Assembly (NCBI RefSeq): GCF_000215705.1
Contig: NC_015677.1
Coordinates: 818,001-882,000 of the forward strand
DNA: 64,000 nt
Direction: 5' to 3'
Source of the DNA: Ramlibacter tataouinensis TTB310
GTDB taxonomy: Bacteria > Pseudomonadota > Gammaproteobacteria > Burkholderiales > Burkholderiaceae_C
Shown here: one piece after another, positions 61,035 through 64,000 of the stretch
Position numbering within the stretch: the stretch's first letter is position 1
How the letters are laid out: each line of letters starts with the position of its first letter
The notes under the pieces: model-generated
What the model was told of the DNA's origin: nothing
The model's database searches: none
The model's input: the letters and a program-made list of their open reading frames with translations, nothing else
Translations under genes and position numbers: made by a program

Positions 61035-61060
61035 CCCCCCTGTCAACTCTGACAGGGGGG
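61035..61060 (+). terminator. Hairpin after secA
   Basis: CCCCCCTGTCA (61035-61045) and TGACAGGGGGG (61050-61060) pair perfectly over 11 bp around the loop ACTC, 44 nt after the secA stop. There is no T-run, so termination may need Rho. It separates secA from the cqsA-like gene. Confidence 0.55.
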
Positions 61061-61093
61061 GCTGGGCAGGGAAGGCTGATTGCCTCTTCAATC

Positions 61094-61120
61094 GGCATAC
61101 CTTTTCTTGACAGGTATGCC
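61094..61120 (+). promoter_or_regulatory. 8-bp inverted repeat at the cqsA start
   Basis: GGCATACC (61094-61101) and GGTATGCC (61113-61120) are a perfect inverted repeat with an 11-nt spacer that contains TTGACA (61107-61112). The right arm covers the first of two possible ATG codons (61116). It could be an operator or an mRNA hairpin sequestering the start. Confidence 0.45.
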
Positions 61121-61121
61121 C

Positions 61122-62378
61122 ATGGAAGCCGCCATCCAATCCGTTGCCCCCGCTGCCCCCTCCGCCGACTCGCGGCTGCCGTCGGCGCTGCGCCAGCGCA
61201 TCGCCCGTGAATTCGACGCCCGCTGGAAGGAGCAATGGGGCGGCCGGTTCGTCCTGCACGGCCGGCCGGCGGGCGCCGCCGCCGTGCGGCTGGACGGCAA
61301 CGACTACCTGAGCATGACAGGCCACCCCGACATCGTGCAGGCGCAGATCGCCGCGCTGCGATGCGACACGGAATCGGTGGTGCAGTCAGGGGTGTTCCTG
61401 CTGGAAGGCCATCCGGCGCACGCCCTGGAGCGCTCGCTCGCGCAGTGGGTCGGCATGGAGGATGGCTTCCTCTGCCAGTCGGGCTATGCGGCCAACCTGG
61501 GCCTGCTGCAGATCATCGCCGATCCCCAGACGCCGGTGTACCTGGACAGCCTGGCGCACATGTCGCTGTGGGAGGGCGCCCGCGCGGCGCGCGCGCCCGC
61601 CCACGCGTTCCGGCACAACGACCCGGAGCATCTGCGGCGACTGGTGCAGTCCCAGGGGCCTGGCGTGATCGTGGTCGACTCGGTCTACAGCACCACCGGG
61701 GCGCTCTGCCCACTGGCGCAGATCCTGGAAGTGGTGGAAGCCACCGGCAGTGCCATCGTGGTGGACGAGTCGCACTCGCTGGGCACCCATGGACCCGCAG
61801 GCGCCGGCCTGTGCGCCCAGCTCGGGCTGACGGACCGCGTGCACTTCATCACCGCCAGCTTGGCCAAGGCCTTCGCCGGGCGTGCCGGCTTCTTCACGGC
61901 CCCGGCGAGCATGCGCTACTACACGCTGATCTCGAGCTTCCCCAACATCTTCAGTTCCTCGCTGCTGCCGCACGAGGTCGCCGGCCTGGCGGCGACGCTG
62001 GAGGTGATCCGCCGCAGCGACGACGCGCGGCAGCGGCTGCATGCCAACACGGCCCGGCTGCGCAGGAGCCTGTCCGAGACCGGGTTTCCCATCCACCAGG
62101 GCACCGAGCAGATCATCGCGCTCGAAGCGGGCACCGAGGAGGCTGCCATCGTGCTGCGGGACGCGTTGGAAGAGCGCGACGTGGTGGGTTCCATTTTCTG
62201 CGCGCCGGCGACCAGCAAGAACCGGGCGATGGTGCGCCTGACGCTCAATGCCTCACTGACCGAGGCGGAAATGGCCCATGTCGAGAAGGCCGCCCGGGAG
62301 ATCGCGCCGCTGCTCAAGCCCTGGGACTGGCCCATCGCGCGCCGCCATCGCGCCGCGGCCTGCCGCCAGGCCGCCTGA
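61122..62378 (+). CDS. cqsA: CqsA-like alpha-hydroxyketone autoinducer synthase (CqsA/LqsA/JqsA family)
   Basis: A 418-residue PLP enzyme of the alpha-oxoamine synthase family. CqsA-type members condense an acyl-CoA with an amino acid or SAM-derived substrate to make alpha-hydroxyketone signals. It has the conserved N-terminal LDGNDYL motif, the PLP-contact VVDESHSLGTHGP with D215 and H218, and the Schiff-base lysine K249 in SLAKAFAGRAG. ATG 61122 is preferred over 61116 because an AGG lies at suitable spacing. The CqsA-type SLAKAFAGRAGFF region and the flanking response regulator argue for a signal synthase rather than BioF or Kbl. Confidence 0.82.
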   Translation: MEAAIQSVAPAAPSADSRLPSALRQRIAREFDARWKEQWGGRFVLHGRPAGAAAVRLDGNDYLSMTGHPDIVQAQIAALRCDTESVVQSGVFLLEGHPAHALERSLAQWVGMEDGFLCQSGYAANLGLLQIIADPQTPVYLDSLAHMSLWEGARAARAPAHAFRHNDPEHLRRLVQSQGPGVIVVDSVYSTTGALCPLAQILEVVEATGSAIVVDESHSLGTHGPAGAGLCAQLGLTDRVHFITASLAKAFAGRAGFFTAPASMRYYTLISSFPNIFSSSLLPHEVAGLAATLEVIRRSDDARQRLHANTARLRRSLSETGFPIHQGTEQIIALEAGTEEAAIVLRDALEERDVVGSIFCAPATSKNRAMVRLTLNASLTEAEMAHVEKAAREIAPLLKPWDWPIARRHRAAACRQAA

Positions 62379-62384
62379 ACCGCC

Positions 62385-63365
62385 TCAGCCCTCCACCTTC
62401 CTTTGCTCCTGCCGTCGCAGCCATTCCCCATACCCCTGGATGCGGGCGCGGTTGTGCTCGTCGGCTGGCACGGGGAACAGCGCGGCCAGCAATTCCCCGT
62501 TCTGGCCCATCGCGAAGGCGGGCATCAGCTGCACGGGCTGGGCGCGCCCCAGGGCCTGCCGCAGCTCGATATCGGCCAGCTGCCGCCCGCTGCGGATCTG
62601 CTCCAGCCCGGCGCCGGCGATGCCTTCCACCTCCGCCAGTTCGGCCAGGGCGTTCAAGCCCTGCGGCGTCTCCAGCTGGAGCCAGCTGACCGCGCCCTGG
62701 GCATCCATGCCCAGCACCCCGAACGGGTCACCGATCACCACGTACTCCGACCACTGCTTGGAGGCGAAAGCGGCCAGCTCGCGCGCCACCGAGGGCAGGC
62801 GAAGCAGCGTGCTGTGCTGCGGGCGCAGGGTGGCGCGCCAGGTCTGGGCATGCCGGGCATTCGGCGTGCTCATCAGGTGGCTCACGGCGCTGACCAGACG
62901 GCGCGAGATGTCGGGTGCCTGCTTGGCGATGAACTGGTCGATCAGGCCGCGGTTGAAGGCCTGCACGGCGATCTGCTCGTCGGCCTGGCCGGTGAGCAGC
63001 ACCCGCGAGCCCGGCCACTCCACCAGCTCGGCCAGCGCCTGCAGGCCGTTCATGGCGGGCATGGAATAGTCCACCACGAAGACGCGTGTCATGGCGTAGC
63101 GCTCGGTGTACCGGGCCCAGTAACCGAGGATCTGCGGGATCAGGGGCTTGCCCTCGCGCCACTGGTCGACCAGCTGCTGCTGGTTCCAGGCGTCGGCCTC
63201 CCAGAACGGCGGCTCCTGCAGCAGGTAGTTGATGCACTGGGCGGGGCGCAGGAACAGCTTGACGTGCCAGTCCTGCGGCAGCACGACGGCCAGCATCTCG
63301 AGGTAGTCCGGGTCGTCGTCGAGGAACACCACGGTGCCCGGGCGGTGGAACAGGGGAAAGCTCAT
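62385..63365 (-). CDS. LqsR-like response regulator with extended receiver domain
   Basis: A 326-residue two-domain protein. The receiver carries the acidic pocket LDDDPD (about 15-20), the phospho-acceptor D99 in VFVVDYSMPAMNGL, Thr in LLTGQAD and Lys in FIAKQ. The acceptor Asp is about 40 residues later than in canonical receivers because of an insert after the second strand; LqsR of Legionella has the same feature as I recall. No DNA-binding helix-turn-helix is seen in the C-terminal half. ATG 63365 is used, with GTG 63380 possible. It is convergent with cqsA, with stops 6 bp apart. Confidence 0.8.
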   Translation of the reverse strand: MSFPLFHRPGTVVFLDDDPDYLEMLAVVLPQDWHVKLFLRPAQCINYLLQEPPFWEADAWNQQQLVDQWREGKPLIPQILGYWARYTERYAMTRVFVVDYSMPAMNGLQALAELVEWPGSRVLLTGQADEQIAVQAFNRGLIDQFIAKQAPDISRRLVSAVSHLMSTPNARHAQTWRATLRPQHSTLLRLPSVARELAAFASKQWSEYVVIGDPFGVLGMDAQGAVSWLQLETPQGLNALAELAEVEGIAGAGLEQIRSGRQLADIELRQALGRAQPVQLMPAFAMGQNGELLAALFPVPADEHNRARIQGYGEWLRRQEQRKVEG

Positions 63366-63404
63366 TGGAAGGGCGGGCACGCGATAGGCGAAGGCATGAT
63401 TCTG

Positions 63405-64000
63405 CTACGCCAGGAGCGGCAGTTCAATCGTGAAGGTGGCGCCGCGGCCCGGCTCGGACTCGACCCGGATGTGGCCGCCCGAGCGCTGCACCACGCGGTG
63501 CGAGAACGCCAGGCCCAGGCCGTGGCCGGTACCGCGGTTGGTCGAGAAGAATGGCTCGAAGATGCGCGGCTGCAGCTGCGGGTCGATGCCCACGCCGCGG
63601 TCGGCGACGCGGATGCGGCCGTGCTTGCCGGCGGCGTCCACCTCGATCTGCACGTCGCCGGGCTGCAACAGGGTGCCGGCGGCGGCCATGGACCTCAGGG
63701 CATTCTTCAGCAGGTTGTCCAGCACCTGGCCGAACAGCGCCTCCGACCCCGCGAACTGGAAGTCGCGGCGCACCTGCAGCCGCACGCTCTCGCGTTCCCG
63801 GCTGCTGCGGAAAGGGTAGTTGAACACCGTGGAGCGCACCAGATCGGCGGCGGAGATGGCGTCCTTGTGGCCGGGAAGCCGCAGCAGCCGCGCGTTGGCG
63901 ATCTGCATGTCGATCTGGTGGTTCATGTTGCGCACCAGCATGTGCAGCCGCTCGGCCAGCTTCTCCAGCGTGCCGCGGCTGGTCGGCGGGCAGGTGTCGG
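63405..64000 (-). CDS. Sensor histidine kinase, C-terminal part (partial)
   Basis: The C-terminal 198 residues of a kinase open to the window end. Visible are an H-box-like NMNHQIDMQIANARL, the N-box VLDNLLKNALRSM, G1 DRGVGID, the F-box FEPFFST and G2 GTGHGLGLAF. The H-box is unusual because the His is followed by QIDM rather than E(L/I)RNPL. The sensor region lies outside. The gene ends 39 bp before the regulator start on the same strand, so the two are probably one operon. Confidence 0.85.
   Translation of the reverse strand, partial: DTCPPTSRGTLEKLAERLHMLVRNMNHQIDMQIANARLLRLPGHKDAISAADLVRSTVFNYPFRSSRERESVRLQVRRDFQFAGSEALFGQVLDNLLKNALRSMAAAGTLLQPGDVQIEVDAAGKHGRIRVADRGVGIDPQLQPRIFEPFFSTNRGTGHGLGLAFSHRVVQRSGGHIRVESEPGRGATFTIELPLLA

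Follow-up and report, generated by a model that had tools for sequence, protein, structure and literature searches.

How does a response regulator of the LqsR type, in which we found no DNA-binding domain, turn a quorum-sensing signal into gene expression? The question is raised by the right end of a 64,000-nucleotide stretch (the window) of the soil bacterium Ramlibacter tataouinensis TTB310, whose genome forms one contig of 4,070,193 bases; the window covers positions 818001-882000. There, a gene named secA by eye is followed by an α-hydroxyketone (AHK) synthase gene, an LqsR-type regulator gene and a histidine kinase gene cut by the window end. According to the accessible portion of the paper on PhcX, both LqsR and PhcX control many genes in a mode that is left unresolved, as is the output of LqsR in Legionella; their output domain is degenerate and GGDEF-like, and diguanylate cyclase activity was not detected (PMC10653808). 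We fetched the right flank beyond the window and found a divergent LuxR-type gene past the kinase, starting 783 bp beyond the window end and followed by coaX. We consider it probable that the locus encodes an AHK circuit of the Lqs/Jqs type in which a dedicated LuxR-type protein binds an operator, controls the synthase gene (lqsA) and itself, and acts as the DNA-binding output of LqsR. A fuller picture is more tentative and falls somewhat short of being probable: that a LuxR-type receptor supplies the DNA-binding output which LqsR lacks, that a single circuit of four genes, with an operator and a small RNA of its own, unites AHK two-component sensing with LuxR-type transcription control, and that a two-gene LqsR/LuxR module persists without the synthase.

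The regulator matches the LqsR structure 6sy9 (E 8e-18). It consists of a receiver domain with an insertion and a C-terminal domain, and it displays the full-length LqsR fold with the receiver Asp in place. Its association with LuxR was followed in 150 genomes of the family, later extended to 399, and in 274 genomes across the class. Among the first 150 genomes, the synthase was found in 22, LuxR in 22 and LqsR in 26. LqsR was present in all 22 LuxR genomes and the synthase in 19 of them, and four genomes with LqsR and three with the synthase lacked LuxR. Wherever synthase and LuxR occurred together (19 of 19 family genomes sampled), the order was the same: a forward synthase, LqsR and kinase on the opposite strand, and a forward LuxR gene. 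Over the 399 genomes, LuxR was present in 43 and LqsR in 42 of those (22 from the first 150 genomes plus 20 of the 21 added ones), always on the same contig and separated from LuxR by 66-1561 bp. The exception, G550, is a metagenome-assembled genome (MAG) that is 76% complete and holds a partial match to the last 84 LuxR residues only. Meanwhile, the class-wide sample contained LuxR in two genomes, both in the family; the synthase scored over its cut-off in seven and an LqsR-like match occurred in 19, two of each in the family.

The synthase was present in 33 of the 43 LuxR genomes and absent from 10. Eight genomes encoded a divergent LqsR/LuxR pair without a synthase (G055, G069, G433, G446, G524, G543, G589 and G647), the two genes lying 61-169 bp apart, and no kinase match was found beside these pairs in the fetched 12-13 kb. 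Such pairs (loci L269-L273, L275, L072 and L073) might be two-gene remnants or a separate module. In G070, a diverged LqsR-LuxR pair stood in tandem (~30% identity), its LqsR frame interrupted by one stop; this genome encoded another LqsR close to coaX, where LuxR was absent.

We also inspected the best 80 of at least 523 confirmed loci, hereafter the named loci, leaving matches below 60 bits out of their gene matching. Most belonged to Ramlibacter, Caenimonas, Polaromonas and Hydrogenophaga, which fits the Comamonadaceae origin that a preliminary description of the window had considered; the others included MAGs with broader labels, one locus labelled Pseudoxanthomonas and one labelled Brevundimonas. 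LuxR was found in 78 of these 80, once as a remnant. The remaining pair consisted of a contig end (L222) and of Polaromonas sp. OV174 (L205), which displayed nothing LuxR-like between kinase and coaX. The remnant, in a MAG (L251), was rejected as a case of LuxR without LqsR: LuxR residues 47-105 and 106-220 gave two separate matches. This broken LuxR stood directly after the synthase end, with no LqsR or kinase match in between.

All 25 members of the LuxR-type family examined matched the LuxR helix-turn-helix (HTH) domain (GerE, PF00196), and none matched the Pfam autoinducer-binding domain (PF03472) at E 0.1. The predicted structure has two domains and best matches QscR, RhlR, SdiA, TraR and LasR, over up to 208 of its 222 residues and at 16-20% identity. 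The LuxR HTH and the LuxR-like predicted fold support our proposal. The quorum-receptor architecture, together with a lux-box-like operator at the synthase gene, also speaks for its main rival, by which LuxR would be a second, cytoplasmic AHK receptor and LqsS-LqsR would run in parallel without being needed by LuxR. QscR and RhlR, which bind acyl-homoserine lactones, and VqmA, which binds 3,5-dimethylpyrazin-2-ol (DPO), are models for such a direct receptor. We regard it as a live rival and a distinct possibility, if a doubtful one: LuxR tracks LqsR more strictly than it tracks the synthase, it is kept with LqsR in the eight genomes that lack a synthase, and no member gave a Pfam hit for the autoinducer-binding domain. 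Moreover, sharing a fold does not reveal a ligand, and the N-terminal part of the prediction matches GAF domains almost as well as it does the receptors.

The second line of evidence is a 16-bp palindrome with the consensus CTGTCAAnnTTGACAG, which occurs upstream of the synthase gene, where it is extended by C and G runs, and again over codons 4-9 of the LuxR gene. The LuxR-gene copy displayed 0, 1, 2, 4 and 7 mismatches in 29, 32, 15, 1 and 1 of 78 named loci (76 of 78 at two or fewer), the copy with seven being that of the remnant L251. Within 160 bp upstream of the synthase, 58 of 75 named loci held a copy with at most two mismatches, 67 with at most three, and eight with four to six; L190, L243 and L251 were left out of this count, having less than 161 bp of upstream DNA. 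Among the 69 named loci with three mismatches or fewer, 64 displayed a TTCAAT or TCCAAT box downstream of the operator, 41-42 bp from its centre. The spacing CCTGT-N8-ACAGG equals that of the lux box of V. fischeri. Three candidate explanations of the palindrome were rejected. It is not the terminator of the upstream gene, as no T-run follows it and it recurs within the luxR coding sequence. It is not the JAI-1 motif, TTGAN6/7TCAA, whose order differs from TCAAnnTTGA. Nor is the copy over luxR a by-product of protein conservation: in 20 loci, proline was encoded by CCT at 19 of 20 operator codons (10% elsewhere), valine by GTT at 12 of 14 (10% elsewhere) and phenylalanine by TTT at 17 of 18 (31% elsewhere), rare codons that stand there because the operator overlaps them.

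The operator is missing together with LuxR. No copy was found near the synthase in the three synthase genomes without LuxR (G009, G093 and G129; loci L076, L078 and L079). At the OV174 locus both LuxR and the operator were absent (best copy, six mismatches) from the 15 kb of genome seen, and LuxR may lie elsewhere; its sister in the tree, Polaromonas JS666, keeps both. The box that reads TTCAAT in other loci is TTTAAT in OV174, closer to TATAAT. The four-gene synteny, the pairing of LqsR with LuxR, the operator and its loss alongside LuxR can thus be read directly from the genomes, and the predicted link of LuxR to the operator is a strong one by sequence.

These observations also bear on the idea of an ordinary Jqs-type circuit, in which the LuxR gene and the palindrome would be chance neighbours hitch-hiking beside coaX. 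In its favour, coaX follows LuxR in many loci, and known systems elsewhere have the three core genes and no LuxR. We consider it very improbable nevertheless: LuxR adjoins LqsR with no coaX match in the fetched stretch at L054, L056, L068, L269-L272 and L275, it stands beside coaX without LqsR in one of the 43 LuxR genomes (the partial match of G550), and the operator is common to the LuxR and synthase genes.

Based on these findings, we postulate the following sequence of events. LqsA would produce the AHK signal, and the membrane kinase LqsS would sense it and change its activity, and hence the phosphorylation of LqsR, as suggested by the sections available to us of earlier work on Lqs (PMC5289986). 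The LuxR-type protein, judging from the co-occurrence of gene and palindrome, would bind the operator. From its place about 42 bp upstream of the -10-like TTCAAT box it would most likely activate lqsA, creating positive feedback, and from its place over codons 4-9 of luxR it would most likely repress that gene; a few further genes may also be under its control. We infer the step from LqsR to LuxR from the gene pairing: LqsR most likely gates LuxR through protein contact, in the way that PqsE acts as partner of RhlR, a partnership also seen in PDB titles. Such gating is indicated most strongly by the retention of LuxR beside LqsR in genomes that have lost synthase and kinase. The same retention bears on another reading, that LuxR is an independent regulator of lqs gene expression with no part in reading the signal. 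The operators at lqsA and at luxR itself, and the small number of other sites (four more in the genome at one mismatch or fewer), agree with that reading. An independent regulator seems unlikely to us, given that LuxR is kept beside LqsR after the loss of synthase and kinase, with no lqsA left to control.

The circuit as proposed depends on the synthase being what it appears to be. The protein scored 563.2 bits against the AHK-synthase equivalog model NF005526 (cut-off 428) and 217 bits against the bioF model (cut-off 426), and it was the only match above the NF005526 cut-off in the whole genome. Its best PDB match was CqsA (3hqt) at 337 bits, far ahead of the next family at 137 bits. In the alignment with CqsA, ITASLAKAF lies over MTASLAKTF and the stretch VDESHSLGTHGP is identical; we take the aligned residues to be the pyridoxal phosphate (PLP) lysine and the Asp/His pocket. 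In a tree without LqsA, JqsA or a named BioF, in which CqsA and L110 form long branches, the window synthase fell with CqsA on a 25-row side, separated by a 100/100 branch from a 21-row side holding Kbl and 5-aminolevulinate synthase (ALAS); L106, with a stop in the segment, was left out. The fold family PF00155 is common to this protein and to other oxoamine synthases (BioF, Kbl, serine palmitoyltransferase), which is what would allow it to be one of them. With the NF005526 score, the PDB ranking and the tree all pointing the other way, an identity as BioF or Kbl was rejected and the chance of any such enzyme appears negligible. Its assignment as an AHK synthase of CqsA type is, on this evidence, right. 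A genome outside the family, G190 (L084 and L110), encoded two synthase-like genes scoring 566 and 371 bits against the same model.

For the kinase, extended beyond the window, a simple Kyte-Doolittle scan gave nine overlapping windows in the N-terminus, which we group into about six membrane segments between residues 3 and 156. From its first residues it aligns with kinases beside distant AHK synthases, at 29% (L087) and 33% (L079) identity. HATPase_c scored above its cut-off and HisKA below (20.2 vs 26.9 bits), H177-E-L-R-T-P, with the phospho-acceptor His, was invariant in 12 of 12 sequences, and no receiver domain was found in the protein, which ends after HATPase_c. These features indicate that it is rightly called a membrane sensor kinase. 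Its stop lies 39 bp from the regulator ATG in the same orientation, consistent with an operon. The synthase stop and the end of the LqsR gene are 6 bp apart on opposite strands, and the two genes are therefore convergent.

Table 1. Features of the AHK locus of R. tataouinensis in window numbering; L009 coordinates equal the window position minus 58000
Feature	Position	Strand	Remarks
AHK autoinducer synthase (LqsA/CqsA/JqsA type), 418 aa	61122..62378	+	NF005526, CqsA 3hqt, tree; start ATG 61122, alternative ATG 61116; stop 62378
LqsR-type response regulator, 326 aa	62385..63365	-	start ATG 63365 or GTG 63380; end 62385
Sensor histidine kinase (LqsS/CqsS type, without receiver domain), 394 aa	63405..64000, on to 64589 (L009:5405-6589)	-	
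LuxR-type gene, 222 aa, P0121	64783-65451 (window-equivalent); C1:882783-883451; L009:6783-7451	+	
Operator O1 CTGTCAACTCTGACAG, within extended palindrome, upstream of synthase	61040..61055	.	
Operator O2 CTGTTAACTTTGACAG, over LuxR codons 4-9	64793-64808; L009:6793-6808		
TTCAAT box, putatively -10-like	61087..61092	+	centre 42 bp downstream of O1 centre

We confirm that the AHK locus with synthase, regulator and kinase is real and not a product of chance. The preliminary description had placed these three genes correctly, with the regulator convergent on the synthase and sharing an operon with the kinase. What it said of the proteins, a CqsA-like synthase that keeps the PLP lysine and the D/H pocket and an LqsR-like regulator, is borne out by the alignments and the tree, and the kinase does possess a membrane sensor region. 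The results that it named as refuting, a synthase that groups with BioF or Kbl or a kinase that lacks a membrane ligand sensor, did not emerge. It had missed the LuxR-type gene, beyond the window, and the operator, inside it, and its interpretation is supported in part.

Further evidence for the proposal comes from sites outside the locus. Sites matching CTGTYAANNTTRACAG with at most one mismatch numbered 56 in 20 LuxR+ genomes (G069 and G070 left out) vs 11 in 20 LuxR- genomes; a reversed-pattern control gave 6 and 6. Of the LuxR+ sites, 27 of 56 lay away from the locus (p 0.014 in a Mann-Whitney comparison with the 20 control genomes), and C..G flanks, which are not in the search pattern, framed 18 of these 27 vs 0 of the 11 LuxR- sites (p 1.7e-4), both p values being optimistic because the genomes are related. 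A codon-based caller, trained genome by genome and applied to the LuxR+ sites only, put 24 of the 27 between genes and 3 inside genes, an upper bound for the intergenic share since some genes escape this caller (in L137, it called a single one over 5 kb). A poorer caller put one LuxR+ site (of 27) and two control sites (of 11) inside a gene.

The R. tataouinensis genome holds six sites at one mismatch or fewer, namely O1, O2 and four more, of which C1:347836 and C1:1317875 lack the C..G flanks and may be chance sites. The site at C1:3566487 (L139) is flanked by rsmD and by genes resembling M16 peptidases, all named by eye, and the same neighbourhood with a site occurs in G097 (L146) and G134 (L144). 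On the rsmD side, each of the three has a box (CAAAAT, AACAAT or CGCAAT), at distances of 42, 43 and 39 bp from the centre of the operator. In R. tataouinensis and G097, GAGAGAG repeats follow, and then a strong intrinsic terminator whose end is 188 and 137 bases away from that centre; the G134 stretch differs in sequence, and the terminator scan called none there. The folding z of the stretches ranged from -2.4 to -3.0, terminators included for R. tataouinensis and G097, and Rfam returned no match for six stretches with extra sites. The site near rsmD thus looks like one that drives a candidate small RNA. Meanwhile, in three genera a site precedes a two-partner secretion transporter of the ShlB/FhaC type (L153 in G042, L149 in G105 and L143 in G047), making these secretion genes a candidate shared target of quorum sensing. 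In G047, a perfect operator also lies about 500 bp from a RebB gene (R-body, PF11747; L140).

These findings have implications for the understanding of AHK signalling. In Comamonadaceae, a neighbouring gene with a defined operator may hold the answer to the question of LqsR output, which can therefore be tested directly in harmless soil and water bacteria. The proposed circuit would join two classes of quorum sensing that are usually described apart, and the operator motif could be used to predict the AHK regulon in Ramlibacter, Caenimonas, Polaromonas and Hydrogenophaga. The AHK genes themselves were already known; new here is the LuxR-type partner with its own operator sites, which might supply the final step that has been missing from this type of signalling.

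The literature seen agrees with this. No LuxR-type partner of an AHK cluster is named among the listed titles and abstract openings of open-access papers, the range covered here (subscription papers lie outside it). "Quorum", "autoinducer" and "LuxR" have no occurrence in the available portion of the R. tataouinensis genome paper (PMC3164672), and another genome paper on Ramlibacter, in its accessible part, refers to quorum sensing a single time, in connection with a homoserine lactone cluster (PMC9731981). "LuxR" likewise has no occurrence in the main text of the PhcX paper, which surveys lqs clusters (PMC10653808). That survey, in the sections available, extends these clusters across Alpha-, Beta- and Gammaproteobacteria, and Tiaden and Hilbi (2012), as far as accessible, list homologues in Polaromonas, Burkholderia and Ralstonia (PMC3376566), so that naming Cqs, Lqs and Jqs as the known circuits, as the preliminary description did, was too narrow.

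With its adjacent synthase, LqsR and LqsS-type kinase, the locus has the make-up of a Lqs/Jqs gene cluster. The Jqs system of Janthinobacterium/Duganella HH01 (jqsA, jqsS, jqsR), also betaproteobacterial, shares the clustered AHK synthase, sensor kinase and response regulator, and the accessible text on its jqsA mutant reports violacein down by 83% (PMC3566124). The quorum-sensing promoters of Jqs carry TTGAN6/7TCAA, whereas the Ramlibacter locus carries CTGTCAAnnTTGACAG. In Legionella pneumophila (lqsA-lqsR-hdeD-lqsS, lqsT), hdeD stands between lqsR and lqsS (PMC5289986), and a LuxR-type neighbour is not described in the passages seen. PhcX of Ralstonia solanacearum is likewise an LqsR-family regulator but adjoins phcBSRQ, according to the available sections (PMC10653808). 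Vibrio Cqs, as far as its description was accessible, resembles the Ramlibacter locus in combining a CqsA-type synthase with a membrane sensor kinase (PMC3376566). The two differ in that Ramlibacter has a plain rather than a hybrid kinase, together with LqsR and a LuxR-type regulator. In Vibrio, CqsS is a hybrid kinase that feeds LuxU/LuxO and small RNAs (Qrr). The Ramlibacter LuxR is similar to QscR, RhlR and SdiA in its two-domain predicted fold with an HTH and in an operator with lux-box spacing, but differs from them in its low identity and in having no match to the Pfam autoinducer domain. Its partners are a response regulator and an AHK synthase rather than LuxI.

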